Shown in pieces: positions 2,266-31,213 of a stretch of DNA of 33,890 nt. A model generated the notes under the pieces. It did not search any database, had not been told where the DNA came from, and saw only the letters and a program-made list of their open reading frames with translations. Each line of letters begins with the position of its first letter. Within the stretch, counting starts at the first letter, position 1. This stretch comes from Microcaldota archaeon (GTDB lineage: Archaea > Micrarchaeota > Micrarchaeia > Anstonellales > J096), in contig JALVSQ010000003.1 in assembly GCA_027024255.1 (NCBI GenBank), positions 20,003-53,892 on the forward strand. Reading direction: 5' to 3'. The translations under genes and the position numbers were made by a program.

Positions 2266-2277
2266 AAGGTGAGAAAG

Positions 2278-4920: not shown

Positions 4921-5967
4921 TCACAGTGTTAACACATCATCATCTCTCTTAACAGCACTGCCAGCAAGCTGAGGAGAATGCACACCCGTTACTATTGCTG
5001 AAACAATAACCTTATTCTGCAAATTCAGGTTTATCCTGGCTCCCAGCTTTACCTCTGCATTTTCATCAAACTGGTCTGTAATTCTACCTGCGATTTCAAC
5101 TGCTTCTCCAAGCGTTAAGTCATCACTACCTTCAATATGTATAATGCCTCCTTTTGCTCCTTCAAAATCAACATCAAGCAGAGGATGGGTTAAAACACCT
5201 TCAACAGCCTGATTAACCCTGTCCGCTCCCTGTCCCTCTCCTATTGAAATCATAGCTAAACCTCTGTCTTTCATGACATTTCTTACATCTGCATAATCAA
5301 TATTCATCAAAGAAGGCAAAACAATGCTGTCAGCAATGCCTCTAACTGCCCTTACTATAACGCTATCGGCAACCTTTAAAGCTTCATTCACAGGTAGATT
5401 AGGAGCATACTCAAGCAATTTATTATTATCTATCAGGATTACTGTATCTGAATTATTTATCAAATCTTTAACTCCCTCATGGGCCTTCTTAATCCTGCTC
5501 CTCTCTAACTTAAAAGGGAATGTGACAACTGATATGACAAGGGCTCCTTCCTCTTTTGCAGTTCTTGCTATAACAGGAGCCGCACCTGTTCCTGTTCCTC
5601 CTCCCATACCTGCTGAAATGAAAACAATCTCATTATTTTCAACTGCTCTTCTTATTGCATCAATATCAGCCTCTGCTGCCTTTCTCCCTATTTTAGGGTC
5701 GCCTCCTGCTCCCAACCCTCTTGTTATTCCCTTCCCTATGAGTATTTTCTCATGAGCTTTAGCAACATTCTGCAAATGATTGGCATCAGTATTAACAGCA
5801 ATTGTTTTTGCACTTTTAATACCTTCCTCATAAAGCCTTGTAACAGCATTTGAGCCTGCTCCTCCAACTCCTATAACCGCAATTCTTATTTTTTGAAGGA
5901 GGTCTGTATCATACTCTGTCAGGGATGCTTTCTTTTCACCCAGCACAGAACTTATAATATCTTCCAT
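4921..5967 (-). CDS. ftsZ1: cell division protein FtsZ (archaeal FtsZ1-type)
   Basis: Tubulin-type GTPase motifs: GVGGAGSNAVTRL, NTDANHL, AGMGGGTGTGAAPVIA, LIDNNKLLEYAPNLPVNEA. Confidence 0.97.
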   Translation of the reverse strand: MEDIISSVLGEKKASLTEYDTDLLQKIRIAVIGVGGAGSNAVTRLYEEGIKSAKTIAVNTDANHLQNVAKAHEKILIGKGITRGLGAGGDPKIGRKAAEADIDAIRRAVENNEIVFISAGMGGGTGTGAAPVIARTAKEEGALVISVVTFPFKLERSRIKKAHEGVKDLINNSDTVILIDNNKLLEYAPNLPVNEALKVADSVIVRAVRGIADSIVLPSLMNIDYADVRNVMKDRGLAMISIGEGQGADRVNQAVEGVLTHPLLDVDFEGAKGGIIHIEGSDDLTLGEAVEIAGRITDQFDENAEVKLGARINLNLQNKVIVSAIVTGVHSPQLAGSAVKRDDDVLTL

Positions 5968-8424: not shown

Positions 8425-8463
8425 TATTTTTATGAATATTCCAACATTTGAGTGGTGATTAGA

Positions 8464-9651
8464 ATGGAAGATAAGGATGCTAATAAAGAACTTGAAAAAA
8501 AAGAAAGCAATGAAGAGCACAATGAGAAAGTAGAAGAAAAGCATGAAGAAAAAGGAGAGGTAAAAGAAGTTCCAGAAGTAGAAAGACAAGCTGAAGAATT
8601 AGTAGGAGATTTGAGCAAAGATGAAGAGGAAATTTTGAAGTTCATAGAAGAGAGCAAGCCCAAAATATATGTGGTGGGAGCAGGTGGAAGTGGTTCAAAC
8701 ACATTAAACAGATTATTCGAAATGGGAGTTGAGGATGTAAATTTAATAGCTGCAAACACAGATGCAAGGCATTTGCTGAGGATAAAGGCAAATAGAAAGG
8801 TTTTGCTTGGAAAACAATTAACAAAAGGAAGGGGCTGCGGAAGCAATCCTGAGTGCGGTGAAAAGTCTGCTCAAGAAGCAGTTCCCCAATTAAAGGACAT
8901 ATTAAAGGATGCCAGCCTTGTATTTGTAACATGTGGAATGGGGGGTGGAACAGGAACAGGTGCTTTGCCTGTAATAGCCAAGCTATCAAAAATGGAAGTT
9001 GGTGCTTTAACTGTTGCTGTTGTTACACTGCCATTCACATCCGAAGGCAAGGTCAGGATGGATAATGCATTGAAGGGTCTGCAAAAACTCAAAAACCATG
9101 TAGATACTCTTATAGTCATAAAGAATGACAAGCTCCTTTCAATTGCACCTGATTTGCCTCTTGACACAGCCTTCAAGATTTCAGATGAAGTGCTTGCAGG
9201 TTCTGTAAAAAACATAGCAGAATTAGTGACAAAGGCTGGCCTTGTAAATGTTGATTTTGCTGATTTAAATACTGTTCTAAAAGATGCTGGATATGCTGTA
9301 ATAGGTGTTGGCGAAGCAACAATAGATGCTCCTCATGAAGACAGGGCAAGGATTGCTGTTGAAACTGCTTTAAACTCTCCTTTGCTTGATGTAGATATAA
9401 GCAGTGCTAAGAGGGTTTTGATAAACATAATAGGTGGAGAGGATTTAACACTCAAAGAGGTTGAATACATTGTTTCAGAAACAGCAAAAAGAGTGGACCC
9501 TGATGCTCATATCATATTCGGAGCAAGAATAGAGCCAGATTTGAAGAAATCAGCCATAAAGGTTTTAATGGTTTTGGCAGGAGTTAACTTTAATCCTGTT
9601 GCTGAGGCAAAAAAAGTTGGCACAGATGATCTAGAGTTAGAGATTCTTTGA
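8464..9651 (+). CDS. ftsZ2: cell division protein FtsZ (archaeal FtsZ2-type) with long acidic/charged N-terminal extension
   Basis: GAGGSGSNTLNRL, NTDARHL, CGMGGGTGTGALPVIA. SD ggtgatt precedes ATG 8464; the track start is GTG 8452. Confidence 0.95.
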   Translation: MEDKDANKELEKKESNEEHNEKVEEKHEEKGEVKEVPEVERQAEELVGDLSKDEEEILKFIEESKPKIYVVGAGGSGSNTLNRLFEMGVEDVNLIAANTDARHLLRIKANRKVLLGKQLTKGRGCGSNPECGEKSAQEAVPQLKDILKDASLVFVTCGMGGGTGTGALPVIAKLSKMEVGALTVAVVTLPFTSEGKVRMDNALKGLQKLKNHVDTLIVIKNDKLLSIAPDLPLDTAFKISDEVLAGSVKNIAELVTKAGLVNVDFADLNTVLKDAGYAVIGVGEATIDAPHEDRARIAVETALNSPLLDVDISSAKRVLINIIGGEDLTLKEVEYIVSETAKRVDPDAHIIFGARIEPDLKKSAIKVLMVLAGVNFNPVAEAKKVGTDDLELEIL

Positions 9652-15320: not shown

Positions 15321-16091
15321 ATGGTTGTTATTCTTTATTCTTCCTTAGTTATTGCAAGCAACAATATTGCCAAGCACTTAATAGAAACTGAATTTGTAGA
15401 AGTTGGAGAAGGAGTTTATGAAAACAAAGGTGGAATTAAATTGTACGACACAAGAGTTAAAAGCATGATTGAAATTTACAGTCCTGTTGAAACTGACTAT
15501 GCCATTGTTCTAAGCCCTCATTCCTCTGCTTCAAAAAGGCCGAGCTTAACTACCCACATTCCTGGAAATTGGGGGATTGCTGAGGCAGGAGGTGAAAGCT
15601 TTACACTAAACCCTGGCTACGGCAGTTTGATGAGAGCATTACTTTTGAAATTGGATGAGTTAAACACAATCGGTTATGCAGTGAGTTATGAAGCAGACCA
15701 CCATGGCCCAACAGTTGATTATCCAATGGTCTTTGTTGAAGTCGGAAGTTCAATAGAAGAATGGAACAATCTAAAAGCATGTAGCATTGTTGGTGATGCA
15801 GTTATGGATGTTTTGAAAGGATTTAAGAAGGTAGAAAACTTTGTAGGCATTGGAGGAGGTCACTATGCCCCAAAATTCACAGATATAAGTTTGAATGAAG
15901 AAAAAGGATTCAGTCATATATTACCTAAATATCATAAAGATATTAAGCCGGATATGTTAAAGCAGGCAGTAGAAAAGAGTGTTGAAGAGGTGAAGGGCTT
16001 TATAATAGATAAAAAGGGATTAAGCGGTTCAAAAAGAAAATGGTTTATTAAGACTCTTGAGGAGCTTGGTTTTGAGTACTGGCTTGTTTAG
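15321..16091 (+). CDS. dtdA: D-aminoacyl-tRNA deacylase, archaeal/plant DTD2 (GEK1) type
   Basis: SPHSSASKRPSLTTHIPGNWG, ADHHGPTVDYPMVFVEVGSS, VGIGGGHYAPKFT. ATG immediately follows the aCPSF1 stop. Confidence 0.93.
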   Translation: MVVILYSSLVIASNNIAKHLIETEFVEVGEGVYENKGGIKLYDTRVKSMIEIYSPVETDYAIVLSPHSSASKRPSLTTHIPGNWGIAEAGGESFTLNPGYGSLMRALLLKLDELNTIGYAVSYEADHHGPTVDYPMVFVEVGSSIEEWNNLKACSIVGDAVMDVLKGFKKVENFVGIGGGHYAPKFTDISLNEEKGFSHILPKYHKDIKPDMLKQAVEKSVEEVKGFIIDKKGLSGSKRKWFIKTLEELGFEYWLV

Positions 16092-19000
16092 GATTTTTCT
16101 CCTTCCAACAGACTTAGAATCTCTTTTCTCTTCTTCCTGTTGTTTGAAAGAAGCTGAGCATATTCCTCAGGCTTTTCAAGAGGATTCACTCCATCAAGTT
16201 CTGGCAACTCTGTTACTTCACCAAGCACCAACACATCTTCCTTTGTAATTACTTCTCCTTGCTTTAAACTAACCAACTTCTTTTTCACAGTAAGGAACTT
16301 CTTGTAGAAATCTTCATCAACGGGTTTTAGTCCTAATGCTCTTCTCTTTTTGTTAATTTCTTCAATTTCTTTCTTTAATTTAGATATTTTCTTGTCTATC
16401 AGTTTGGAACCTCCCTCCTCAACTGATTTAGATGCTTTTCTCAATCTTTTTTTGCTCTCTTTCAATTTACGAATCTTTTCCCATAACTCAACTGCTCTTC
16501 TGGCATCTCCCTGTATGTTTTTGAATGGGTCTCCCTTAAACAACGAAGCAACCTTATGGATTAATCCTGATTTAAACGCTTTTTCAGTTTCTTCAAGCAC
16601 ATCTTCCTCATACTCTGACTTTCCAGGAATAATAACAGAGAATTTACCATCTTCCCCTCTAAATATAACTGGCTGACCTATTATTGCTTTGTCTCCTTTC
16701 TTAACATACAGATGGGAAAACTCTGAAAGTGAAAAGGCCTCTACCTCAACTGATGTTAGCTTTGATATTTGCAAATCGATAGATGATGCTCGTTGAGAGT
16801 ACTTATCTTTTAATTTAACCAGATACTTGTGTATCTCACCCAATTTCATCTCATATAAATTAAATCTATCTCCCTCAGGTAATAACTCATTCAGCTTTGC
16901 CAAATCATCTCTCATCCTTTCAATTCTTTTTCTTTCAGTTCCTCTTTTGGATGAAAGAAGTTGTTTAATGCTCTTATCTTTATTGGTGTTAAATTGAGTC
17001 TCATAATTCTGATTGAGAATATCTATTAGTTTGGTGTACCTCAAATAGTTAATTCTCTCTGTTTCTAAGTATTTCATTCTTTTTATGATGAATCTCTCCG
17101 CCACATAAGCATAAAATGCTTGTTGATATCTCTCCCTTTCTTCTTTTTTCGCCTTTTCCATCTTTTTAGCTAACTTATTTACATCTGAAATCTCCTTTTC
17201 ATTTAAACCTGTAAATGGGTCATCAAACATGAAATCCGACCATCTCTGCTTGTAGATAGTAAGAAGCAGAATTTCACCATCTGAGAAGGTGCTCACCTTC
17301 TCTGGATTTTTATCTGAAATACTTGTTACATAAGCAGAGTAGAAAGGCAATGCTTTATAATCTAAAAGGCTCTTTACCTTCTCATAAGAAACCTTTCCAG
17401 TAATTTTTTCCATGGTTTCTCTTACCATTTCGCTTTCCATGATTTTATATACTGTTGCTCTTCCTTCCTTAAATTTGTCTAATTTCTTGTCAAGGGATTC
17501 CACATCCACTCCAAACTTATCGAGTTGATCTCTGTATTTCTGTAAACCTTCTCTTTCTTCTTTAGTCTCAGCCGCTAAGTAACTTAGTATATAAGAGGAA
17601 AGAAGCCACCTCCCTGCATCAAAGCTCTTTTCTGCATCCAAAGGGAGTAGCAACTTAAACAAGTTTGAATCCGCCAACTTGAAGTACTGGTTATATTCAC
17701 CCATTTCAAGAAGTTGAACCACAAAACCTTGCTTATATTTTTCTATTAATATATCTCTTATCTTATTTTTCCCTAATAAACCAACAAGCCTGTTTGAAGG
17801 TAATTCTTTAATGCCATACTGTTCAGCCAATCTAGCCATTTGTTTTTCGTATTTCCTTCTAATCTCTAACATTTTCTTTGCAGAACTCTCTACAGTTTTT
17901 GTTTGTCTTTTATATATTCTCTCCCTCGCTTTTTTAAGAAAGTTATCGTCTCCCTTTCCTTTCTTTATGATAAAACCAAAATATCCTTCATCCATCGCCT
18001 CATTATACTCCTTACCCAGCACATCTTTTGCATCCTCACGAGACAGGTAAAGCAGTTTCAATAATTCTTGTGCTTCTTCCCTCTTTTCAGGAACTAATGT
18101 CTCAAGGCTTGTCTCTACAACAGGGTCATATCTAGTTTCATATGTCTTCCCTCCTCTTTTTACCGTTATTTTATTATTTTGGCTATCAACCTTTATCTCC
18201 ATTACTTTATTGCCATTCTCATCAATAAATTTGAATGTACCTCCTGTTTCTTCTACTTTTATTTCACCTCTATATGCCCTATCAAGAATCTCAACCGTAT
18301 TATTGTCTATTGAAAATTTGCTCTTTCCAGCCTTTCCAATCGTTTGAAGTGTATAAATCCTCACAATTCCTTCTAAGGGAATACTCTGCTGATTTATTTT
18401 AACATAAGGCAGGTATTGCTTAACATCAGGAGAACTGCTGTTGAAATAGATTCCATCTTTTCCAAAATATAAAATTGGTTTTTTGATAGCCTCTAAAAAC
18501 TGCTTATAAGCCTGCTCCCGTAGAGATGGATCTAAGCCCGCTTCTGAAGGTGGATTAAAAGATATAATTCCCATCGAAAATAAAGCCTTATTAAACCCAT
18601 AAGGATTTTGGAAGTAAGTTAGTTGAAAACCAAGATTTCCTAAAAGTTGATAAGCAGGTATCACGAGCTTGATAAATTGTTCCTCAACTTTCCCAATTTC
18701 TTGTCTCTCTTTTTCATCTAACTCTTTAATAACTCTCTGCCACTCAAGGTTGGTTAAAATTCCAGGAGCAGTCTCAATCATGTGATAAACAGCCCATCGC
18801 GAATAATCAAAAGCAAATTCACCACCTTTTTTACCAAGAAGCTCAAGCCCACTTAATTTTTCACCTGCATAGAGAAAACCAGTAGAAAGGGCCATCAGGA
18901 TTACTCCTTCACCTATGTTTTTCACCAGCTTGAGCCCCTGAAGCTTCAATATATCCTTGAATGTTTTATCTGGTTTGGCTTCAAGTTCTGCTATTTTTTC

Positions 19001-20056
19001 CACAAGCCTCTTTCCTTCCAGTTTTTGAATAATACCTGCTCCTACACCTGAAGGAAGATTGATAGCAGCTCCTACATGTCCCAAAAGCCTTCTGAAAGAA
19101 AGGCCTTCTTTTCTTCCTTTTTGCGAATCTTTTCTTTTCAAAGTAGCTTCTTCTATCACCTTAGGAGAAAATAAAAGTCTGTTTTGTCCCTTGGATTCTG
19201 GTGAAAACAGTAAATTCTTTCTTCCTTTTCCTTCTCGTGAAAATAAAAGATTCTCTCCCTTACCTTTTACTTTTTTCTTCTTCCCTTCAACCTTTGTTTT
19301 CTTTTTTCTATCAGCCATCATAGTAGCTGCCCTTCCAGCCATAAACAATTTTTTAGCAGTACTAATTCTCTCTCTCCTTACACCTGCCTCTTCAAAGCCT
19401 GCCCTTATGTTAGAAGGTCTCACCAATCTTGGATTTCTAAGCATATCAAAGCTGAACCATATAAACGGGTTGTTGCCTGTCATCAGCATTACTCCAATTA
19501 TAGTGCCAAGAGCAATAATCAAAGGAAAGCATACGGAAAGGTTGGTTACATTCACTCCAACCTGCCTTGAAATGGTTGTTGATGTTGAAATTACAGCGGG
19601 TCTTAACCTGAGTTCCTCTCCATTAACAGTTGCTTTCTCTTTATTAACTGAAAAGCCCACACAATCCTTAATATCATCAATTGAGTTAATATTCAACTCG
19701 CTTAAACATTCCCTAAAAGCGCACTCCTTAGCAGGGTCATAATAACAAAACATGAACCTGTAATACTTGCTCTCATCTGAATCTTTGGGAACAACTACTT
19801 TACCATCACTATTTGTATTTGCTTTGCAAATACTCTCAAGGCCTTTGCTTCCATACTTCTCAACAAATATAATAGCATTTTTAACAGGTTTAAAATCTCC
19901 ATCTACAAAAGCATAAAGGGAAACCTCAATGTTTTGGCCCTCTTTAAGCACCATTTTAGTTGGATAGGAGTTTGCATAATCTTCAATGCTAAGGCATGAT
20001 AATGAAAACCCTATGCTGAGCAAAAAAAGCAAAACAACCAATCTTTTCGCATTCAT
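16088..20056 (-). CDS. very large signal-anchored protein: short ectodomain, one TM, ~1100-aa charged, partly coiled-coil C-terminal region
   Basis: 1322-aa ORF; N-terminal signal peptide MNAKRLVVLLFLLSIGFSLSC, Ig/carboxypeptidase-regulatory-like ectodomain, TM LSVCFPLIIALGTIIGVMLM near residue 180, then a K/E-rich region. Confidence 0.9.
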   Translation of the reverse strand: MNAKRLVVLLFLLSIGFSLSCLSIEDYANSYPTKMVLKEGQNIEVSLYAFVDGDFKPVKNAIIFVEKYGSKGLESICKANTNSDGKVVVPKDSDESKYYRFMFCYYDPAKECAFRECLSELNINSIDDIKDCVGFSVNKEKATVNGEELRLRPAVISTSTTISRQVGVNVTNLSVCFPLIIALGTIIGVMLMTGNNPFIWFSFDMLRNPRLVRPSNIRAGFEEAGVRRERISTAKKLFMAGRAATMMADRKKKTKVEGKKKKVKGKGENLLFSREGKGRKNLLFSPESKGQNRLLFSPKVIEEATLKRKDSQKGRKEGLSFRRLLGHVGAAINLPSGVGAGIIQKLEGKRLVEKIAELEAKPDKTFKDILKLQGLKLVKNIGEGVILMALSTGFLYAGEKLSGLELLGKKGGEFAFDYSRWAVYHMIETAPGILTNLEWQRVIKELDEKERQEIGKVEEQFIKLVIPAYQLLGNLGFQLTYFQNPYGFNKALFSMGIISFNPPSEAGLDPSLREQAYKQFLEAIKKPILYFGKDGIYFNSSSPDVKQYLPYVKINQQSIPLEGIVRIYTLQTIGKAGKSKFSIDNNTVEILDRAYRGEIKVEETGGTFKFIDENGNKVMEIKVDSQNNKITVKRGGKTYETRYDPVVETSLETLVPEKREEAQELLKLLYLSREDAKDVLGKEYNEAMDEGYFGFIIKKGKGDDNFLKKARERIYKRQTKTVESSAKKMLEIRRKYEKQMARLAEQYGIKELPSNRLVGLLGKNKIRDILIEKYKQGFVVQLLEMGEYNQYFKLADSNLFKLLLPLDAEKSFDAGRWLLSSYILSYLAAETKEEREGLQKYRDQLDKFGVDVESLDKKLDKFKEGRATVYKIMESEMVRETMEKITGKVSYEKVKSLLDYKALPFYSAYVTSISDKNPEKVSTFSDGEILLLTIYKQRWSDFMFDDPFTGLNEKEISDVNKLAKKMEKAKKEERERYQQAFYAYVAERFIIKRMKYLETERINYLRYTKLIDILNQNYETQFNTNKDKSIKQLLSSKRGTERKRIERMRDDLAKLNELLPEGDRFNLYEMKLGEIHKYLVKLKDKYSQRASSIDLQISKLTSVEVEAFSLSEFSHLYVKKGDKAIIGQPVIFRGEDGKFSVIIPGKSEYEEDVLEETEKAFKSGLIHKVASLFKGDPFKNIQGDARRAVELWEKIRKLKESKKRLRKASKSVEEGGSKLIDKKISKLKKEIEEINKKRRALGLKPVDEDFYKKFLTVKKKLVSLKQGEVITKEDVLVLGEVTELPELDGVNPLEKPEEYAQLLSNNRKKRKEILSLLEGEKS
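19157..19262 (-). repeat. three tandem ~14-aa repeats within the 1322-aa protein
   Basis: Protein GKGENLLFSREGKGRKNLLFSPESKGQNRLLFSPK: LLFS[RP][EK] three times. Confidence 0.75.
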
Positions 20057-20084
20057 GATTAACTTTTAGTATCATCTTTTTTTA

Positions 20085-20166
20085 ATACTTTTTAAACTAA
20101 AACACCAACCCCCCTTAAAATAAACAATTCACAGGAATTTTTAAAAAACAATAATATCTAAGGTAA
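20085..20166. promoter_or_regulatory. divergent promoter region between the 1322-aa gene and the membrane-protein operon
   Basis: 114-bp intergenic region with A/T boxes 'actttttaaacta' and 'ggaatttttaaaaaac'; the latter lies ~25-35 bp upstream of ATG 20171, which would give a near-leaderless plus-strand mRNA. Confidence 0.45.
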
Positions 20167-20170
20167 TCGA

Positions 20171-21364
20171 ATGAAAAGGTTTATGATTTTACTTCTAATT
20201 GCATCACTCGTGTATTCTATAAACTACAGTTCATTAACCGCAGAGTTAAAAAGAACAATGCCTTTCATATTCATAGGAAACCTAATAGGTTTAATAATAG
20301 GGGTCCTTCAGCTTTACAGTGCCAAAATAACTTCCTCAACCTACTCAGAAGTAAATGCAAAGAATGAAATAAAGACAGTATTCATAAACATTCTTCTGGT
20401 TATAGCAACGTTAGCTCTCCTCTCTTCCTACACAGCAATTATGAATATATTTGTTGGAGGTGATGTATTCATAAAAGTAGAAACAACTCTTAACTCCATC
20501 ATAGATAGTTTATTCAACGCCCAAATATTCATCTCTCCCCTTTACATATGCCAGCAGGCTTTACCAACATTCTACATAGGGGGTGGAATAACAATCCCAA
20601 TACCAAAAGCGCCTATTGGTATTACTATGAATTCTCAGGTAAGCAAATTTATAAAATACTCTTTAACATCTGACTGGCTTTCAATAATATTGAATGTGTT
20701 AGCAACAAATGCAGGCATCTACGGAGTTTCAAAATTCCTTCTTTACTTTCTTCCATTTATAGGAGCTGCCCTATTCCTGCCTCTAGGTTTTTTCTTAAGA
20801 GGATTGTCTTTTACAAGGAGGATAGGCTCAACAATGGTTTCCATCGGACTTGTAATTCTCTTTATATTCCCGTGGATTACATACTTCTTTGCATATATAA
20901 GCAAAGAGATTATACTTCCAAAAACTAATGAATTAATCTCAAATAGTGATGTAAGAAAAGAAAGGACAGATGAAATGGCAGAATACAAAGATGTAGCCAA
21001 CACTATAAAAACATTCAAAGCTCTTGGAATTGGAATAAGAATTATGAGGTTCTCAGAGCCTCTAATTGAAAAAAGATTGCCTTATGGCATAGGTTATATT
21101 TTAGCAGCTTTGTTAAGAGCTTTATCTGTTTTATCATGGTTCTTTTTTTCAAGTCCATGGTTAGCGTTAAAATCCTCATCAGTGGATTCATTAATGAGCT
21201 TAATAAGCATGTACTTTCCCCTTGCCGAATACACAGCAATTGTTTCTATAACATCTCTGTTTTACGCAGTCGGGTTGGTCTTAAGCATACTTGGAGGTAT
21301 CAGGTCCGTTTCTCTTCTCTTAGGTGGAGAATACTTCCTTTACGGGGTGCAGAGTTATGTGTAA
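20171..21364 (+). CDS. polytopic membrane protein, VirB6/TrbL/CedA-like paralog 1
   Basis: 397 aa, signal-peptide-like N-terminus MKRFMILLLIASLVYS, motif A NEIKTVFINILLVIATLAL, motif B GFFLRGLSFTRRIGSTMVSIGLVILFIFP, C-terminal LSILGGIRSVSLLLGGEYF. Confidence 0.85.
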   Translation: MKRFMILLLIASLVYSINYSSLTAELKRTMPFIFIGNLIGLIIGVLQLYSAKITSSTYSEVNAKNEIKTVFINILLVIATLALLSSYTAIMNIFVGGDVFIKVETTLNSIIDSLFNAQIFISPLYICQQALPTFYIGGGITIPIPKAPIGITMNSQVSKFIKYSLTSDWLSIILNVLATNAGIYGVSKFLLYFLPFIGAALFLPLGFFLRGLSFTRRIGSTMVSIGLVILFIFPWITYFFAYISKEIILPKTNELISNSDVRKERTDEMAEYKDVANTIKTFKALGIGIRIMRFSEPLIEKRLPYGIGYILAALLRALSVLSWFFFSSPWLALKSSSVDSLMSLISMYFPLAEYTAIVSITSLFYAVGLVLSILGGIRSVSLLLGGEYFLYGVQSYV

Positions 21365-22319
21365 GCTCAACTTAAACATGATGCCCCTGACAGGAAGCGT
21401 TGTGCCTATTTTAATAATAATAAACGCATTAATAATAGCACTTTCCTACATCGGAAGTAAGTTCCAGAACGATAGAAAAGCAATGCTCTTTGCAAAAAAT
21501 GAAACAAAAGAGCTTTTCATCACGGTAATACTTGTAATAAGCACACCTGCTTTGATATATGCCTTTTGCCAGTTAACGAGCAGTTATCTTGGATTATTTG
21601 GTATAAATGATGACCCTACTTCTTATGCCCTATCAAAGCTGGTAGATATGGAAGATGAGATAAAGAATATGTTAATAAATGGTTATCATTCCCAGATAGA
21701 ACTAGTAAAGCAGAGCATGGATTATTCAGTTATCCCTGTTATAGTGCCTGTCAATTCAATTCAAGAAGTAAAGAAAGTTCCTCTGGCTGTTCTTTGCTTA
21801 AGCACAACTCAGGAAAGTGGAAAGCTTTACTGCCTTTTATCAATCAGCTTTATGAGTTATGCTCCTGATGCCGATTTAAATGCAAACATTCAGGTACTTG
21901 AAATTTACTCTCATACCCTATCCTCATATCTAAACTTAATCTCTGGCCAAAAAGCACTTTTGGAGTTCATAGCTACAACTGGATTCACAGTTCTGTTCTT
22001 CCTGGGTATTGTTCTAAGATTAATTCCACCTCTGAGAACAGCAGGCAACTTTATCTATCTGCTGGCTATTTCCTTAATAGTACTAGTGCCATTTTTCTAT
22101 TCAGTATTCCTTTCACTGTACAACAAAGAGCTAACTTCATCCATTTGTTCTAAAATAACTCTTCCTGAAATAAAACCGTTCAAATGCAATAGTGAGGTTA
22201 GTTTAATAAAGGTAGGGTTATTACTTCCATTTGGCATCCTTCTTCCAAACCTCATGCTTGCATTTGTCATAACATTTGTGAGCAGTGCTAAAAAGATATT
22301 TGAGTTCATAGAGGTGTAG
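21357..22319 (+). CDS. polytopic membrane protein, paralog 2
   Basis: ATG 21357 overlaps the upstream stop (ATGTGTAA) and follows SD ggggtg; track start is 21324. Motif A NETKELFITVILVISTPAL; motif B GIVLRLIPPLRTAGNFIYLLAISLIVLVP. Confidence 0.85.
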   Translation: MCKLNLNMMPLTGSVVPILIIINALIIALSYIGSKFQNDRKAMLFAKNETKELFITVILVISTPALIYAFCQLTSSYLGLFGINDDPTSYALSKLVDMEDEIKNMLINGYHSQIELVKQSMDYSVIPVIVPVNSIQEVKKVPLAVLCLSTTQESGKLYCLLSISFMSYAPDADLNANIQVLEIYSHTLSSYLNLISGQKALLEFIATTGFTVLFFLGIVLRLIPPLRTAGNFIYLLAISLIVLVPFFYSVFLSLYNKELTSSICSKITLPEIKPFKCNSEVSLIKVGLLLPFGILLPNLMLAFVITFVSSAKKIFEFIEV

Positions 22320-22320
22320 T

Positions 22321-24282
22321 ATGAAAAGGCTAATACTATTAATAGCAATGTTAAGCCTTGCTTATGCTCAATCCAGTTTAGTTGATTTTCTCCTCTCACT
22401 GAATCAAAAAACAGGTCCTGTATACAACTGGTTCATAGTCGGCTTCCTGGGAATTATAATATCAATAGCAATAGCTGTCTTAATGTTTGAGCTTTCAAAC
22501 ATATTTGGCATTCCTTATTTAAAAGCAATGTTCAACATAGAGATGAAAGAGGTTCTATTCACCGTCTTTCTTCTTCTCCTCCTGCATACTGTTGTTGATA
22601 TTCTTGATTTAGCATTTAAAGGATTGGGCCCCTTAGGAGGAATTACAGCCTACTGCCACTATTATGACCAGCCCAACTGCATAATCTCAACAACTGTCCA
22701 TTACATCGATGATAATATTGAGCTGAGCAAAAGAGCTTTATCCAATCTTCTCTCCAGATTCGAAAAAACATCAAGAAGGTCTTCGCTCTCATTAGCAGTA
22801 GGTATTGACAAACCAGAATTTGGTTATGCATCCATTTCATATGCCCTCGGAAGCAGTGGAGGTGATGCTGTTGAATCAAGAATTTTATGGGAACAATTAA
22901 CTCAAACATTAAGCCTGAGCTTTGGGTTCAGGGAAGGCCTTTTGTTTATAATTCAGTTTATAGGTCCTGTTGCTTTAAGCATGGGTGCTGTATTCAGATG
23001 TTTTATGCCAACAAGGAGGTTAGGAGCCACATTGATAGGAGTAGGTTTCTCCTTCTTTTATGCATTGCCTTTACTACTCCTCTTTTTCTACTCAATAAAC
23101 GAATCAGAAGGCATAGGACTATTAAATGAGGAAACTCATAACTGCCCTCCAGAATGCGGGCCCAACAACATAATCGGTTTCAGTGATAATGAAGTAATCA
23201 CAACTTCAAATGCGGGAGATTATCTTGCCTCTGCTTCTCCAGAACAAGTTTCTAAGTTCTTAGAAGGTGAAATAAAGGAGTTGAACATAAACGGAAACCA
23301 CTTCATTTCATGTGAATTTATATCCCAGAGTATTGGTAAAAATGTTTTTGCCTCATTCCCGGACATAACAAAGGAAAGATTGAAAAAGCTCAATGAATCA
23401 GGAGTTGATATTTATTTCTCTGTACTCCAATGTCCAAAAGTTTGTAGAAGAATACCTTATCCATCAGATATTCCTATTTGTAGAGATGCTGAAACAACCT
23501 GTTCAAAGATGTTTGAAATTGCGCCAAAATGTTTCAAAAAAGATTATGACTTTTCTTTACTCCAAAAGGAATTCATAGCACCTGACGGCAGTAAGAAGGC
23601 GTTAGCAAAACTCCTTCTTGAAACAAAGTGTTTTGATATACTCCCTCTAAAAGTGCCTTACAAATCAACACCATTCGTTTATTGTCCCAAGGAATGCAGG
23701 TTTTATTACAACACTGCAACCTCAGCAAGTGATGGGCCATGCAAAGGAGATAAAAAGTACGGAACGTATATGGATGAACCTGTTGATTTTGATAAGTGGA
23801 TTGAAAAGGATAAATGCAATTATGAATTCAAGAAATTCAACAAGCTATTTCAAAAGATTATATGCAAACCTGATGGAAGCTGTGAGGACATGTACAAAGG
23901 GAGCTTTAATCCAAGTGATATTTACTCAAAGGTTGAAGCTATGTTAAGAAACCCAAGCCCATCAAACATAAATGAAGTGGAAAGCATGTTAAAAAATATT
24001 CAATTCAGGATAGTGCATAAAGATGAAGATGCAAGTTGCTACAACCTCATAGGCATTCCTGACAGCTTTAGACATATCCCACCATTCATCGACTGCTCAA
24101 AGTGCTATGGGCAGGAACAATCGCTAACTTCAAATTCAATGCCCTATATTGTAACTGCCAGACTTTTCCTTGAAAATGTCGTCATTCCAACCATTGCTCT
24201 CGCCTTAACTATGTTTGCAGGAGCTGGACTATCCCAATACCTTGGTGGAGAAATGTTTGTTCCGGGTTACGGGAGGCTATAA
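22321..24282 (+). CDS. polytopic membrane protein, paralog 3, with ~350-aa Cys-rich insertion
   Basis: 653 aa; signal peptide MKRLILLIAMLSLAYAQ; motif A IEMKEVLFTVFLLLLLHT; motif B GAVFRCFMPTRRLGATLIGVGFSFFYALP; Cys-rich loop before the last TM; C-terminal AGLSQYLGGEMF. Confidence 0.87.
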   Translation: MKRLILLIAMLSLAYAQSSLVDFLLSLNQKTGPVYNWFIVGFLGIIISIAIAVLMFELSNIFGIPYLKAMFNIEMKEVLFTVFLLLLLHTVVDILDLAFKGLGPLGGITAYCHYYDQPNCIISTTVHYIDDNIELSKRALSNLLSRFEKTSRRSSLSLAVGIDKPEFGYASISYALGSSGGDAVESRILWEQLTQTLSLSFGFREGLLFIIQFIGPVALSMGAVFRCFMPTRRLGATLIGVGFSFFYALPLLLLFFYSINESEGIGLLNEETHNCPPECGPNNIIGFSDNEVITTSNAGDYLASASPEQVSKFLEGEIKELNINGNHFISCEFISQSIGKNVFASFPDITKERLKKLNESGVDIYFSVLQCPKVCRRIPYPSDIPICRDAETTCSKMFEIAPKCFKKDYDFSLLQKEFIAPDGSKKALAKLLLETKCFDILPLKVPYKSTPFVYCPKECRFYYNTATSASDGPCKGDKKYGTYMDEPVDFDKWIEKDKCNYEFKKFNKLFQKIICKPDGSCEDMYKGSFNPSDIYSKVEAMLRNPSPSNINEVESMLKNIQFRIVHKDEDASCYNLIGIPDSFRHIPPFIDCSKCYGQEQSLTSNSMPYIVTARLFLENVVIPTIALALTMFAGAGLSQYLGGEMFVPGYGRL

Positions 24283-24283
24283 T

Positions 24284-25360
24284 ATGAATGCAGTTTCAAT
24301 AATACTGCTCGCTGCCATGCCCTCATTAGCATTAGCTGTCCTTTTCTACATGCTTTCAAAAATACTGGACATTCAAAGCCTTTCCTTAATGTCCCAGGAT
24401 GAGATAAAGGAAATAGTCATAGGAACTATCTTCATCTCTTTAGCCTTCCTTATTTTTAATGGATTAATCAATGTAGCTTCCTACTATGTTATAGAAGGAT
24501 TTTACCCTGAAGGAATCACCGGAATAACAAATTACGATTTCAGGGAAGCTTCCCAAACTCTAATCGAGGAACTTTTCATTTCATTCAGCAAGGTTGAAGA
24601 AGCTCTCTACAATGCACAGGTTGAGCTTGAAAGTGTTGTTTATGCAACCAGGTCAACGAGCATAATTCAGGCAGGAAAAACAGATATATTTGGTGATACT
24701 CTTATAGGAAGAATGGTAAATGTCCTTCAGCATGCCTCTGCCTCAGAAGTGGGCTTTTCTCCATGTAAAGGATTAAGTGAAATACTGATTGTTCTTAGAG
24801 GAGTGAACAACAACATAAGACTTGCTTACACAGGCCTATGGGGTCACATAATTCTGATAAACCTTTCAGACACAATCGTGGCAATATTCCTGGCAATGGG
24901 TCTATTCTTGAGGTCCTTCAAAGTAACCAGAGGTATAGGAGGTTTTCTTATTGCTTTTGCCTTTGCTTTACTCCTTTATCAACCCATATCTTACCTGCTC
25001 CATAAATTTGTAATAAACTATATAAACGATGAGTATAAAGTTGACCTCTTAAACATTAAACAGAACGATATTGAAAAGGATTTAGAAAAAGCAGGATTCT
25101 ACTTTACAAAGAGTGGAAGTTACTGCGATGAGGGTAAAATATTCTCTGATGTAGAAAAAAGCTTGAGAAGCATGAGTACCGTAACAAAAGATCCAAAAGA
25201 AAACATAGTAGGAGTGATTACATTTGCAACAATAGGAGTTCTGCTCTCAGAAGGGTTTGCTGTCCTTACAATAATATCTGTGTCAGCAGGTCTATCAAAG
25301 CTCATGGGTGTAGAAATATCTCCATGGGTTCTATCAAACATAGCGAGGTTGAGATTATGA
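24284..25360 (+). CDS. polytopic membrane protein, paralog 4
   Basis: ATG 24284 preceded by cgggaggctata; track start 24215 lies inside paralog 3. Motif A DEIKEIVIGTIFISLAFLIF; motif B GLFLRSFKVTRGIGGFLIAFAFALLLYQP; C-terminal SAGLSKLMGVE. Confidence 0.86.
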   Translation: MNAVSIILLAAMPSLALAVLFYMLSKILDIQSLSLMSQDEIKEIVIGTIFISLAFLIFNGLINVASYYVIEGFYPEGITGITNYDFREASQTLIEELFISFSKVEEALYNAQVELESVVYATRSTSIIQAGKTDIFGDTLIGRMVNVLQHASASEVGFSPCKGLSEILIVLRGVNNNIRLAYTGLWGHIILINLSDTIVAIFLAMGLFLRSFKVTRGIGGFLIAFAFALLLYQPISYLLHKFVINYINDEYKVDLLNIKQNDIEKDLEKAGFYFTKSGSYCDEGKIFSDVEKSLRSMSTVTKDPKENIVGVITFATIGVLLSEGFAVLTIISVSAGLSKLMGVEISPWVLSNIARLRL

Positions 25361-26541
25361 ATTTAATGGATTGCCCTTCAGATGTATCTTCCCTGCCTAT
25401 ATTCCAGATGAGTCAAGCACTAATTTTAAGTTTCATGATTGCAGGTCTCTTCTACTTAATCTACTACTTAATATCAAAAATATTAGAATACGAAAAAGGA
25501 ATTATTGTAATAAAAGAAAATGTAAAAGAGCTAATAGTATTTTCAACTGTTCTATTTGTAGTGAGCTTAGTAATCCAATTTTTTGCCTCAGGCTCCAGTG
25601 GCTTACTCGCAAGCATTCTGAACCTGATTCAGACAAGCAGCAATCCTCAATACATGGATCCACATGCATGCCTGTACAAAAATGCAGAAGCATATCTCAT
25701 AAAGAATATTGAATTCTCCTCATACGTACTTAAATACTCAGTATGGTTTAAGGGCTTTCTAGATTATCTCACATCATTCAGATACTCTAATTGCGTAAGC
25801 TGGGAAGGATGCTTAGGCTCAACAGGCGGAACAAGGCTAGCTAACATTCCTTTAAATCCAGGATTATCAACCTTCCAAAGTATTATGGGAAGTGTTGTAT
25901 ATATGCTCTACAACGCTGTAACAACAGGCGCTACTCAACTCGTATTGCTCCATATAATATCAGGAAATTCATTATTCATCTTAATGTCCTTATCAATAAT
26001 CCTCAGGGTTCTTCCACCAACCAAATACCTTGGAAACATAATGGTTGGAACACTCATAACTCTAACACTTATTTATCCCTTTATAGTCTTCATAGAAGGA
26101 TATGCTTTCAGGATAGATTACCAGGGAAATATAAATGACCATGTCAGAAAAGAGTTTTTCAAGTATGCAGATGGTGATTTTAAAGGAATAATAAACGATG
26201 AGGAGGAGTTAAACAAACTGAAAAAAAACACTTTGAAAGAATTCACAAAGCACATAGTTCCACTTAAACCTTTCACATCATCAAACAAGCCCACTGAGTC
26301 ATTTATGATAAAAGCTAATCCTCAGGCAAACGCAGGATTATGCCTTGTAAAGCACAGTAAAGATAAAGAGTCCACCCTTGTCTGTATTGGGAGTATCTTA
26401 AACCTTACATATTTCTCATTTATCTACTCTGTGTTTACGCTCTCCATGAACTTAATAATAATGATAGTGAGTGTTAAAAGCATAGTGGTTCTACTAGGAG
26501 AAAGAGACTCCCTCATTGATTTATTCATGAAGGTGATATAA
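25357..26541 (+). CDS. polytopic membrane protein, paralog 5
   Basis: ATGA overlap with paralog 4. Motif A ENVKELIVFSTVLFVVSLVI; motif B SIILRVLPPTKYLGNIMVGTLITLTLIYP; C-terminal VKSIVVLLGERD. Confidence 0.86.
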   Translation: MNLMDCPSDVSSLPIFQMSQALILSFMIAGLFYLIYYLISKILEYEKGIIVIKENVKELIVFSTVLFVVSLVIQFFASGSSGLLASILNLIQTSSNPQYMDPHACLYKNAEAYLIKNIEFSSYVLKYSVWFKGFLDYLTSFRYSNCVSWEGCLGSTGGTRLANIPLNPGLSTFQSIMGSVVYMLYNAVTTGATQLVLLHIISGNSLFILMSLSIILRVLPPTKYLGNIMVGTLITLTLIYPFIVFIEGYAFRIDYQGNINDHVRKEFFKYADGDFKGIINDEEELNKLKKNTLKEFTKHIVPLKPFTSSNKPTESFMIKANPQANAGLCLVKHSKDKESTLVCIGSILNLTYFSFIYSVFTLSMNLIIMIVSVKSIVVLLGERDSLIDLFMKVI

Positions 26542-27497
26542 TGCCATTACTTCAACTCTCTGACATTGGAGAAATATACAGTCTGACGATAATAGGCGTA
26601 GTAATAGGTTTCATAATAAATCTAATAGGTCTCATGTTGGCAAAAGGATTCGGAGATGAAAGAACTGTGCTAATGGCAAAAGCTGACTTGATAGATGCAT
26701 TAGGCACAGGAATGCTTGTTGTAGCTATTATAAGCCTCTTTTTCCTATCAGATGAAGCATTAAAGTTCCTATCTTCCTCCTTAGGTGTACAGGATTATTC
26801 AAGAATTATAGATTACATGTATTCCTCATTCGATGTGTTAAGCACATCCGTTTATTCTGCAATAACAAAAGCAAAATCATCTTTAAGCGGATGGTTGAGT
26901 TTAAGCTCTTTCTCATTTTCGCTATTTAGTGTTCCTGTAACATCACTATTACTCAACAATATTGTGTTTGAGCAAGCAACAAGATATGCTTACATCATAT
27001 ACGATGCTGTTCCAATTGAAATAGGAATAATTACAGCCAAACTGTTAATAAAGTTTATAGTGAAATCAACACCTTACGTTCTTGGTTTAGGTGTTCTCCT
27101 GAGGTCGTTTGACCCATCCAGAGCTCTTGGAGCTGCTATGATTGCTTTAGCATTAGGCGGCTACTTCGTGTTTCCTTCTACTTTATACATCCTTCAAAGC
27201 AGGACTGTACCTTTAATTGCATGGACAGAATCAGAAGGAATGAGTTACTGTGGTATAAAAACGCTTGGTGTCCTTTCTTTACCAAATGATGTATTCAATT
27301 CATTAAAAAGCCCTTTAAGTGAATCTCTGTCATCAAGCGATGTAGAAGAGTTCATCAAAGTAATGCACTTAAGCCTGCTCATAGATTATGCAATAGCCTC
27401 AGGCATAACATTCATGTTTATATTTTATACCTCATTAATACTATCAAAAGGGGTGATAGCATACTCATTCGTTGGAAAACTTGGCTCATTGCTTTGA
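26541..27497 (+). CDS. polytopic membrane protein, paralog 6
   Basis: TAATG junction with paralog 5; motif A-like ADLIDALGTGMLVVAIISLFF; motif B GVLLRSFDPSRALGAAMIALALGGYFVFP. Confidence 0.86.
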   Translation: MPLLQLSDIGEIYSLTIIGVVIGFIINLIGLMLAKGFGDERTVLMAKADLIDALGTGMLVVAIISLFFLSDEALKFLSSSLGVQDYSRIIDYMYSSFDVLSTSVYSAITKAKSSLSGWLSLSSFSFSLFSVPVTSLLLNNIVFEQATRYAYIIYDAVPIEIGIITAKLLIKFIVKSTPYVLGLGVLLRSFDPSRALGAAMIALALGGYFVFPSTLYILQSRTVPLIAWTESEGMSYCGIKTLGVLSLPNDVFNSLKSPLSESLSSSDVEEFIKVMHLSLLIDYAIASGITFMFIFYTSLILSKGVIAYSFVGKLGSLL

Positions 27498-30400
27498 TTG
27501 CCGTATTTATTACAGGATGCCTTATCAATGAGAATGCAAGCGTTTGTTGTGAAAGCATAGCCAACAATACATGCACTAAACTAAACAATTCCTATCAAAT
27601 AATTGATGGCGGCACATGCAATAGCTATCAGAAGATATGCGAAGGTGTAAAGGTGAAAATAGGAAACAATGAAATGGTACTCACAATTCCTTACTGTTCA
27701 GATGCTAACTACTCCTTATGTGGAGAGGGATGCAGCATAATCGAGATAAAAAAGTATAAAGAGGAAAGACAGGCAAATGCTGATGGCTGGCAAAGATTCA
27801 CAATATTGAATAACTCTGAGTTCATAGGTCCTACTCCTTCTGCCAGCGGAGATATAAATGATGTCATAGGGCTTCTTTATGCTCACACAGAGCTTTACAC
27901 AATAAGTAAAGATAAAGTTCCTTCTTTAACATCAAGGCTTTATCCTTTCAAGTTCGGAGTAGGAACCTCTTTTGAAGAATTCAACATTGCAAAGCACTTC
28001 TTCCCCACTTCAGATGATACATGCTGTTTTGTTCCCTTTGCTCCTGTTTACAGATACTCGTTTTATATTCTTCCCGAAAAGCCATATTCATGTCAGCCAA
28101 CAGACCAGGGAATTGTGTGCAAGAAGGATGGTAAACAACTTGGCTACTTCAAGGATTATGCCATGTGTTTAATGAACTGTAATGATGAGTATTTAGGACA
28201 TAATCCTCCAAGGCTTTTTACTCCATACACCTTTTGCAGAGGGAATGAAGATATTCCTCTCAACATAAAACTGGCTTACGAGATATACCTCAGGGGAGGA
28301 GCTCCAGAAAGAGATTACATGTCTCCTGAGGCTTATTTCATGTTTTACCTACCTCTTGAATATTCTTCAAGAGATGAATTCAAGAGTGATAGTATATATG
28401 GTAATAAGTTTTTAGAAAGCGGAACTTCCACTCCATACGGCACAAAAATTGGATTTCCATTTGAGTGTAGAGAAAGTAGAGACTGTAAATCAGGTCTTTG
28501 TTCATTCTATTCTTACAGACATTATGTATGCCCTACTAAATTCAGTTCTGCTGTTGATTGTGGATGTGCAATCACAGATGGTTCTACTGTTTACAGTGAA
28601 ACAAGCCCAAGGCAGTGTTTTCAGGAAAAAGATTTTTATGTTGCCACAACATCAGCAGGCACATACATGTTTAAGTGGGGAAACGAAGAAAGCGACTGGA
28701 TACCTACCCTTGAAACAAATTGGAGGAGCTTAAGGAGGGACATTTTATTATTGAGATTAAGATTACCAGAAGCTTCTCAAGGAGACAAAAGAATAGTTGA
28801 AAAGATTACAGCAAAATCTTTCTCAAGGAGTAGAAGATTGAATATAAAGCCCTTAGATAATGACTTTACAAGGGTTATATATGTAGATATGCCTTTAACC
28901 CAATCACTAGAAAAAACAGTGAAGGACATTAAAAGAACAACACCTTTTCTTAGAAAATGCCTGCTAACATCTTATGACAGCGATAACACAGTTGATGATG
29001 AAGCTTATATATGCCTCAATCCAGTAATTGGAGAAATGGCAAAATGTTATGATTTTAACAGCCACTCCTGGAAGTGCACACCTGAATACCTGTTTGATTT
29101 AGATGAGAACAAAGATGACTTTGAAGAAACAGCTGAGATTCTCGAAACCCTTAAACCTCCTACTGATACAAATGTAGTCAAGGTATTTGCTCCACCCTGC
29201 TGTAAAGATGAAGTCGAGGAAAGAGCCAGAGAGGTCTGTGATAGGGAATTCAATTTAAAGGACCCCATAATCAAATTCATATTTGGTCTTGAAGAAACAG
29301 AGGAAAGTAATGCTCTCCAAAAGGCTAAAACTGTTACTGTGCCTCCTCTTGTCCTAATAACATATAAAAGTGATGCAAAGTGGCAGGGAACAGGTATTGA
29401 ATATGATTTCTGGTTCGGAAGGTGTCTTGTAGACTCTCCTAAAATACTGGGATGGTGTGAGCCCTGCACATCCCTATCATTTGCAAGCCAGAATTTAACC
29501 TCTCTTGGGAAAATAAAGGGCTACTGGCCCAATGGCCAGGGAGCATTTACAACAAAAGGAGTAATAATGCCCTACAAAGCTTCTTACATTGAAATAAAAG
29601 ATGATAAAGATGAGCTGTGCGATGCAGGAGGTCATAAAGCTGTAGCAGCAAACATTGTATTGCTTCCAAGGAACACATTCCTGGGCTGTTCTGAGCAACC
29701 AAAAGGAAGCAACGACTATGATTTCTATCCTTATGATAATAAGGCAACATGGCTCCATCTACCTGAGTTTGACCCTGACTATTTGTATATGGTAAAAAAC
29801 ATAAAGAAGCAGTTAGTATCAGGTATAACTCCCATCCTTTTCATGGAAGATGAAAACCTTTACAAGTATAAAGCCTTTGATGTAAACTGGGTGCACGATG
29901 ATAAAGACATGGTTGGTTCTGTATTCGTGACAAAGGTTTTAAGAGACATCTTCTCATTTCCCGAGCATGTAGGCACTCCTGTTTCAGCTCCAATCGGTCC
30001 TGTAATCACAGTGGTAGGTACTTATCCTGATGTATCTATAAATGACTTAATAGAAAGAGCATCAATAATAAAGGAAAACAAGTTTTATGATGAAAAGCAT
30101 CCTGATGAAGTATTAAAAGGAAGTGGGTTTGAAACAGGCTGTCCTACATGCGATGTTGCTGTTGCTTTTGAAGGAGATATGGTATATTCAGGAGAAAAAT
30201 ATGGAGTCTTGCTTAAAGGAACTGCCAACTCTCTTTTTGGGTTGCCAGGGAATAGTCATCACTGCAAAAGAGCAGATATAAGGTTTTCAGGCAAGCTTCA
30301 CAATCCCATTCTGAATATAGATACAGAGCCATACGATTGCAATGAAGAGGCTATGAGGTACTTTGATATAATTGTTGAAAAGATAGATATAAATCCAGGG

Positions 30401-31213
30401 AGTAACTGGCCTTCTGAGAAAGAGGAAGCTGAAAAGAGATATGAAGCTATGGTTGATTCAATGATAAGATTGGCTAAACTCAATGCCTACTACACAGGAA
30501 AACCGACCCTCTTTTATATTACTTCAATAAAAAAGGAAAAAGGATTTGATGTAAAGGAATTTTTCAATGCAATGGCAATGAAAACATCTGAAATGGCTGA
30601 ATCAGGCATTTTAGGGGTGCATATTGCCAAATTTGTAGATGAAAAAAGAAATGTAAATGAATATCTAGGATTCGAACTAGATAAAAGTGGTAATTTGCCT
30701 GAAATAAATGAAGTGGATAAAGATTATATATGTGGAATTGCCCAATTTGCAAATGCTTATGCTGGACTAAGCCTGACAAATAGGATGCCAAAGAGAATCA
30801 ATGTGGGTAATTGTGAAACAAAATTGCCTGATTGCCTAAACATTGAGCAGTGTATCTTCAAAGGACAGCCTGCAAAGCTACTATGTATAAATGAAAAAGG
30901 AGAGTTCATTATCTATTCTTCAAATCCAAAGCAGGGAGAAAAAGACATCAACAAAATATTCAACAACTTTGATATGTATAGCAGCATTATATCCTCCCTG
31001 ACAGAGTACTCATACAAAACTCTATGCAATAAAGATGAAAATGGAACTTATTCATATGTACCAATCAACTTCCCACCAGCAGCAGGCATTCCTGTAGCTT
31101 ATGATTCAACATTGAATCACTCCTGTCTTGGCCATTCATTGACATTCTTCCAGGTTGCTGATTTATTCGGCATAAGCCAGATGCCTGTTGCATGCATAAT
31201 GCTAAGTGGTTAA
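27494..31213 (+). CDS. large Cys-rich exported, lipoprotein-like protein
   Basis: About 1239 aa from TTG 27494. The in-frame upstream extension to ATA 27461 gives xLIRWKTWLIALIAVFITGC, a full lipoprotein signal. Many Cys (e.g. ECRESRDCKSGLCSFY, DCGC); no internal TM evident. Confidence 0.85.
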   Translation: MIAVFITGCLINENASVCCESIANNTCTKLNNSYQIIDGGTCNSYQKICEGVKVKIGNNEMVLTIPYCSDANYSLCGEGCSIIEIKKYKEERQANADGWQRFTILNNSEFIGPTPSASGDINDVIGLLYAHTELYTISKDKVPSLTSRLYPFKFGVGTSFEEFNIAKHFFPTSDDTCCFVPFAPVYRYSFYILPEKPYSCQPTDQGIVCKKDGKQLGYFKDYAMCLMNCNDEYLGHNPPRLFTPYTFCRGNEDIPLNIKLAYEIYLRGGAPERDYMSPEAYFMFYLPLEYSSRDEFKSDSIYGNKFLESGTSTPYGTKIGFPFECRESRDCKSGLCSFYSYRHYVCPTKFSSAVDCGCAITDGSTVYSETSPRQCFQEKDFYVATTSAGTYMFKWGNEESDWIPTLETNWRSLRRDILLLRLRLPEASQGDKRIVEKITAKSFSRSRRLNIKPLDNDFTRVIYVDMPLTQSLEKTVKDIKRTTPFLRKCLLTSYDSDNTVDDEAYICLNPVIGEMAKCYDFNSHSWKCTPEYLFDLDENKDDFEETAEILETLKPPTDTNVVKVFAPPCCKDEVEERAREVCDREFNLKDPIIKFIFGLEETEESNALQKAKTVTVPPLVLITYKSDAKWQGTGIEYDFWFGRCLVDSPKILGWCEPCTSLSFASQNLTSLGKIKGYWPNGQGAFTTKGVIMPYKASYIEIKDDKDELCDAGGHKAVAANIVLLPRNTFLGCSEQPKGSNDYDFYPYDNKATWLHLPEFDPDYLYMVKNIKKQLVSGITPILFMEDENLYKYKAFDVNWVHDDKDMVGSVFVTKVLRDIFSFPEHVGTPVSAPIGPVITVVGTYPDVSINDLIERASIIKENKFYDEKHPDEVLKGSGFETGCPTCDVAVAFEGDMVYSGEKYGVLLKGTANSLFGLPGNSHHCKRADIRFSGKLHNPILNIDTEPYDCNEEAMRYFDIIVEKIDINPGSNWPSEKEEAEKRYEAMVDSMIRLAKLNAYYTGKPTLFYITSIKKEKGFDVKEFFNAMAMKTSEMAESGILGVHIAKFVDEKRNVNEYLGFELDKSGNLPEINEVDKDYICGIAQFANAYAGLSLTNRMPKRINVGNCETKLPDCLNIEQCIFKGQPAKLLCINEKGEFIIYSSNPKQGEKDINKIFNNFDMYSSIISSLTEYSYKTLCNKDENGTYSYVPINFPPAAGIPVAYDSTLNHSCLGHSLTFFQVADLFGISQMPVACIMLSG

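Follow-up and report, generated by a model that had tools for sequence, protein, structure and literature searches.

What is built by a 15-kb archaeal locus in which six consecutive genes for polytopic membrane proteins lie between the genes of two giant exported proteins? We addressed this question in a stretch of 33,890 nucleotides (hereafter the window; G000:C3:20003-53892, that is genome G000, contig C3) from a tiny symbiont-type archaeon of the Micrarchaeota, a DPANN lineage, whose genome amounts to 875 kb in 52 contigs (91% complete). The six genes belong to a single paralogous family, each in its fixed position, with an equivalent second array. Arrays, a VirB4-type ATPase operon and VirB2-like pilins are shown below to be one evolutionary unit, which forms a single operon in sister lineages. 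We consider it likely that the locus encodes the pore and the exported parts of an envelope transfer machine which is related to type IV secretion systems (T4SSs) and to the Ced/Ted systems, and which is specific to Micrarchaeota within our phylum-limited search.

The locus and its six-gene arrays

The locus comprises the following features (window positions throughout; aa, amino acids):

16088-20056, minus strand: giant anchor protein, 1322 aa, with a signal peptide, an exported N-terminal domain, a transmembrane segment and a long coiled tail
20057-20170, no strand: divergent AT-rich intergenic region, 114 bp, with TTTTTAAA-type stretches in both directions
20171-21364, plus strand: array 1 position 1, polytopic, 397 aa
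21357-22319, plus strand: array 1 position 2, polytopic (ATG at 21357; longest open reading frame, ORF, from GTG at 21324)
22321-24282, plus strand: array 1 position 3, extended member, 653 aa, six transmembrane segments, Cys-rich soluble insert
24278-25360, plus strand: array 1 position 4, polytopic, 360 aa (ATG at 24278; longest ORF from 24215)
25354-26541, plus strand: array 1 position 5, polytopic, 395 aa (ATG at 25354; longest ORF from 25324)
26541-27497, plus strand: array 1 position 6, polytopic, 318 aa
27494-31213, plus strand: LIPO, exported Cys-rich lipoprotein, 1239 aa, TTG start

This layout agrees with a preliminary description of the window, which had the anchor gene running leftward and six polytopic genes plus an exported gene of ~1240 aa running rightward (16088-31213), between housekeeping genes (dtdA on one side, DUF429/udg/endA on the other). 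The overlapping starts and stops that it reported among the seven rightward genes are real, because the measured gaps are -8, +1, -5, -7, -1 and -4 nt. As predicted from its sequence, the 114-bp gap probably holds divergent archaeal promoters. Searches of Pfam and NCBIfam with all eight locus proteins gave no match above cut-off, and no transporter or other family of these collections was assigned to the paralogs. A profile comparison with the polytopic proteins of pNOB8 was negative as well, a PDB sequence search with the paralog profiles returned nothing, and a viral structure library returned nothing significant.

The second six-gene array lies on contig C25 of the same genome (L044:4670-11691). 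Pairwise BLAST among the six proteins of array 1 and the six of array 2 yields weak but consistent matches, and the positional profiles are mutually homologous (hhalign probability 98-99.9%), which bears out the earlier claim that the six polytopic genes are paralogs of one family. The family core reads LPhGhhLRhhPxTRxxGxxLIA and is followed by an invariant proline; signatures of individual positions are found across the order, namely QAIFLPNL (position 2), TRKLGGLL (3), RGAGGFLI (4), LRSLPFMR (5) and LPLGILLR (6). When positions of the two arrays were compared by hhalign score, the diagonal (array 1 position i against array 2 position i) was best throughout array 2 (six of six) and for five of six positions in array 1. 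In an IQ-TREE phylogeny of 112 sequences, the 13 groups formed by six positions in two arrays plus one solitary type need 13 changes, the minimum being 12. This tree pairs positions 1 and 6 of the two arrays exactly (SH-aLRT 91 and 68) and positions 2 and 5 almost exactly; positions 3 and 4 are unpaired, and branches are long. The optimal gene-to-position assignment is also 1-2-3-4-5-6 for the two arrays of G160 and for G100, a genome that belongs to another order, while it becomes noisy in the most distant families. Complete arrays inspected within the window's order have six members every time. The Cys-rich insert of position 3, with 21 Cys, is conserved in relatives. In some lineages the position 3 protein grows to ~1350-1580 aa (L058:1090-5838, with 106 Cys, L141:9194-13246 and L147:9878-13919), and in L057 other array positions are enlarged too (933 and 876 aa).

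Array 1 was compared across 48 named loci, that is, those whose titles give Micrarchaeota, 'Candidatus ainarchaeum' or archaea without further name. All six genes stand in the order 1-6 in 34 of them, with the lipoprotein gene next in 28; many of the others are cut by contig ends or ORF calling, and a few have uncertain position labels. Spacing across these loci is tight (median -1 nt; 155 of 168 gaps of at most 20 nt). As the seven-gene order recurs in dozens of genomes, the arrangement of the locus is more than chance.

Both giant proteins, which the preliminary description had assigned to the same system as the paralogs, are indeed kept beside the array in many genomes. The anchor gene adjoins the array in nearly all loci examined, either divergent upstream (n = 15) or downstream (n = 9), and the N-terminal ~230 aa of its product are conserved in 28 of 59 order relatives. 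Its signal peptide is followed by an exported N-terminal domain (~aa 25-170), a second transmembrane segment (aa 173-191) and ~1130 aa that are presumably cytoplasmic. The other giant protein was rightly called a Cys-rich lipoprotein: besides the TTG start, it has a Gly-Cys lipobox (G8-C9) that is invariant in 23 homologues and 47 Cys, many of which are invariant across the same homologues.

Since most loci encode the lipoprotein and the anchor together with array 1, one could imagine a surface-protein export or assembly apparatus, in which paralogs and ATPase would secrete and anchor these two proteins into a coat or attachment structure rather than form a conduit. Both proteins have Sec-type N-terminal signals, and neither gene is found near array 2 or near the arrays of other orders, although these arrays do show linkage to ATPase and pilin, so that we hold such an apparatus to be improbable and a transfer machine preferable.

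Other small genes were seen near these proteins in relatives. A conserved gene of ~104-111 aa ('...RPxKRLRRHLTxENLWLYILSIIRK...') adjoins the anchor gene in many of them (for example at L048:18045-18359, L050:1161-1475, L052:19718-19999 and L056:18285-18599), and none was seen beside the anchor gene of the window. In a neighbouring family, a zinc-ribbon-like Cys-rich gene (~111 aa, 11-13 Cys; L048:923-1258, L053:1547-1882 and L055:4395-4730) and a ~190-aa gene form a pair near array 1.

ATPase, pilins and their linkage to the arrays

No VirB4/HerA/CedB-type ATPase is encoded within the window, as the preliminary description had stated, and its expectation that a motor would be encoded elsewhere proved right. 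The sole VirB4/TraG-type ATPase of the genome is located on another contig (G000:C50:2649-4211; PF19044 over cut-off), and in sister lineages a VirB4-type ATPase is found beside the array. Such an ATPase was found in 59 of 59 order relatives, and the 11 ATPases inspected all have a DEAW Walker B motif, as VirB4/TraG proteins do. Comparison by hhalign gives 96% to a VirB4 pair and 97% to TraG of pNOB8, and sequence matches in PDB include HerA and a VirB4-like protein. The operon runs A1up-ATPase-A2tm-A3cc-A4big, the A1up product, encoded directly upstream of the ATPase, having two transmembrane segments and a soluble part. By eye, A1up looks like a candidate for VirB3 or a VirB4 N-terminal domain, which a negative hhalign comparison with TrwK and TrbE did not support. 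An array-adjacent ATPase in L162 was not counted as linkage, as its motif is EEAH (HerA type). Outside the window's family, most relatives from the order have a second and diverged VirB4-type ATPase (~34-52% identity), which comes with an A1up and an A3cc of its own (L095, L097, L099 and L103-L106).

The T4SS_pilin family (PF18895) is matched over its gathering cut-off at G000:C25:32868-33191 (L045:12868-13191); a further pilin-like copy adjoins this gene and another is located on contig C36. Pilin genes adjoin the array in L188 and L180, and in several genomes the top Pfam matches of array-adjacent pilin-like genes include T4SS_pilin or TrbC, below cut-off. In addition, two tandem pilin-like stretches are present at the N-terminus of the array-2 position-2 proteins of G057 and G041 (L100 and L102). 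Pfam does not call pilin domains in these proteins; a profile of the system's own pilins matches them at 1e-23 and 4e-15, and its other polytopic matches are only pilins and family members, with 95 non-family polytopic ORFs as background. This search was non-iterated; iterated single-sequence profiles were discarded, as they had drifted to match the polytopic family as a whole.

Genomic locations tie the three components together. L188 has pilins, the six genes, the ATPase and accessory genes in one run, and pilin, ATPase and polytopic gene also share one cluster in L181, L183 and L191. In contig C46 of G014 (L096-L097), the six genes, lipoprotein, anchor, A1up, the second ATPase type and A3cc are contiguous. 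Outside the window's order, the complete or near-complete genomes G065, G074, G097, G102 and G100 show the array, two A1up genes, the ATPase and then A2tm/A3cc/A4big where called, with array and ATPase ~2 kb apart and partner genes between them (the ATPase of L182/G074, left unlabelled by the ATPase profile in the locus annotation, was placed there by the whole-genome search). Two pilin genes precede the array in G100, and one lies a gene upstream in G065. A solitary family member is located between a pilin-like gene and A1up-ATPase in L095, L104, L106, L181 and L183; it adjoins pilin and ATPase in L191, and the same is seen without a called pilin in L105.

Array family and ATPase also tend to be absent together. 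Among 197 Micrarchaeota genomes, the family is present in 178 and the ATPase in 173, and 17 of the 19 family-less genomes also lack the ATPase (Fisher p=4e-17, uncorrected for shared ancestry; four of the ATPase absences were deduced from genomes left unlisted).

These patterns bear on two further explanations. The paralogs might be ordinary polytopic transporters or permeases that arose by tandem amplification and are unrelated to any secretion machine, as they match no family and paralog expansion is common among transporters; the fixed order of six, the linkage to ATPase and pilin, the pilin-domain fusion and the co-absence with the ATPase make this very improbable. A VirB4-type ATPase and pilins are also typical of integrated conjugative elements, of which the locus could be a remnant. 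This deserves hardly any credence for a set of six genes that is flanked by housekeeping genes, is inherited position by position, is present in most genomes of the phylum and comes with no PF03432 relaxase.

The putative pore and its workings

The preliminary description had proposed a multi-subunit trans-envelope machine in which a set of paralogs replaces a single channel. The machine stands as the best reading, because the paralogs are syntenic with both giant proteins and are tied to a VirB4-type ATPase and to VirB2/T4SS-pilin-like proteins; as to the replacement of a single channel, we infer a hetero-oligomer. The likening of the paralogs to VirB6, on the other hand, was not supported in the sense of homology. 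None of 34 family members has a TrbL/VirB6 match in Pfam, and hhalign against R388-type VirB6 and TrbL reaches at most 4.2%, compared with 80.9% for a VirB6-TrbL control. A fold search with two models gave nothing at E<=0.001. For the AlphaFold2 model of position 6 of the window (mean predicted local distance difference test score, pLDDT, 78.5), R388 VirB6 chains are among the best template modelling (TM) scores and rank 6-7, with values that are not significant (probability 0.51/0.44, TM 0.35/0.40, E 0.88); for a position-2 model (L115, pLDDT 86.2), VirB6 is absent from the top 50. As the profile comparison is negative and the fold search undecided, the likeness to VirB6 is one of function, through the partners, and not of demonstrated descent.

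These results weigh against a machine related to T4SSs, as do several features of the partners. Most pilin-like matches are below the Pfam cut-off. Array 1 of the window has no adjoining ATPase, and the ATPase is single-copy in all ten genomes of the window's family searched, despite two arrays. Finally, for PF03432, the sole relaxase family searched, this genome yields only a 38-position match with stops (E 0.018).

If the locus does encode a transfer machine, the six paralogs would assemble in the cytoplasmic membrane as a hetero-oligomer, probably ring-like and with one of each. A hexameric VirB4-type ATPase would dock below this ring and drive pilin extraction and/or substrate passage, and the short pilin would make up a thin filament or a conduit. 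Array 1 may have a disulfide-stabilised outer part that faces a partner or host cell and consists of the Cys-rich loop of position 3, the lipoprotein and the exported domain of the anchor; with these two proteins, array 1 would be a specialised outward-facing version. As to cargo and direction, the machine may import DNA in the manner of Ced or exchange material with a host. We put forward tentatively the most complete form of this scheme, namely an obligate hetero-hexameric pore of six ancient, non-interchangeable paralogs, with whole-array duplication, a VirB4-type hexamer as motor and an array 1 remodelled into a partner-cell device.

Outside the locus, the window contains five consecutive overlapping ORFs of 109-147 aa (2269-4038), between a thiolase region and an Hsp20-type gene. 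Each has one N-terminal transmembrane segment and 3-6 Cys, and they look like a group of small proteins that are pilin-like or secreted; ORF 2269-2643, the sole one of the five scanned, is without a Pfam match. Two ftsZ paralogs (4921-5967 and 8452-9651) are located less than 5 kb apart, with HAD phosphatase and agmatinase/spermidine synthase-like genes between them. A leftward protein crossing the contig end (33470-33889) has an EF-hand-like motif and several Cys.

Comparison with known systems

How DPANN archaea physically connect and exchange with other cells is an open question, and the constituent proteins of a DPANN attachment organelle observed by cryo-tomography were stated to be unknown (PMC11420986). 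A conserved, ATPase-driven envelope machine offers concrete gene targets here. The machine, found in ~90% of sampled Micrarchaeota genomes, is best read as T4SS/Ced-like and phylum-wide, and its six-paralog membrane component is without precedent. It was not described in the open-access literature on VirB4, VirB6, T4SS, Ced, pilins or competence in Micrarchaeota or DPANN, to which the word undescribed is limited here (subscription papers and preprints being outside the scope of this search).

Ced and Ted (CedA-CedA1-CedB and TedA-TedC-TedB) are reduced T4SSs (PMC9905601). Compared by roles and topology rather than by CedA sequence, they resemble the present system in being archaeal and in combining a polytopic channel candidate, a VirB2-like pilin and a VirB4/HerA-type ATPase, and the fusion of pilin to the polytopic family recalls the reported similarity of CedA1 and CedA (PMC9905601). 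They differ in having one CedA instead of six position-conserved paralogs, often in two arrays, and the extra conserved genes (the A1up pair, A2tm, A3cc and A4big, plus the lipoprotein and anchor that accompany array 1) set the present system further apart. The shared core roles, together with the description of Ced/Ted as domesticated T4SSs (PMC9905601) and the missing PF03432 relaxase, would suit a DNA-import machine sensu stricto, that is, a Micrarchaeota counterpart of Ced/Ted that draws in DNA from other cells and is not directed at the host. However, no gene for DNA binding or processing shows consistent linkage, the Ced/Ted gene sets described have no counterpart of the Cys-rich lipoprotein and the anchor that go with array 1, and retention in genomes of 0.5-0.6 Mb suggests a more central role. 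We regard this restricted function as rather unlikely, and an envelope transfer machine in the broader sense is retained in what follows.

The T4SSs of Rickettsiales likewise have tandem VirB6 paralogs, four or five in number, some with large extensions and lipoboxes, and their genes are scattered over clusters (PMC7648143). These paralogs carry a recognisable TrbL/VirB6 domain, whereas none was detected in the six genes described here, and no counterpart of the lipoprotein and anchor is named there (PMC7648143). Patescibacteria (Candidate Phyla Radiation, CPR) offer a parallel in lifestyle, as reduced epibiont genomes whose T4SS includes a VirB4 ATPase and VirB2-like pilins (PF18895 among the profiles) and mostly lacks a relaxase; it was reported to be essential for epibiotic growth in one species (PMC12102498, PMC10633639). 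Unlike the present system, it is bacterial and MPF_FATA-related, some of the genomes have recognisable homologues of VirB3, VirB6 and VirB8, and a six-gene array is not reported for it (PMC12102498, PMC10633639). Among DPANN, nanohaloarchaeal giant Ig-like proteins also associate a giant membrane-anchored exported protein with a VirB4-family ATPase, but the VirB4/TraG ATPase is fused there, while it is separate here and the six-paralog array is the core (PMC10266531).

In T4SSs, pilus assembly and substrate transfer depend on VirB4 ATPases working together with VirB6 and VirB2, a central VirB4 hexamer is present in the Dot/Icm machine, and both R388 VirB6 and DotA are pentamers (PMC12857230). 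VirB6 being a homopentamer in the T4SS structures reviewed, six position-locked paralogs beside a motor of the VirB4 type would amount to a novel way of building such a pore, and a six-paralog pore makes the question of symmetry directly testable. The Micrarchaeota system is most likely an undescribed relative of bacterial DNA/protein transfer machines, using six different subunits where these use copies of one.

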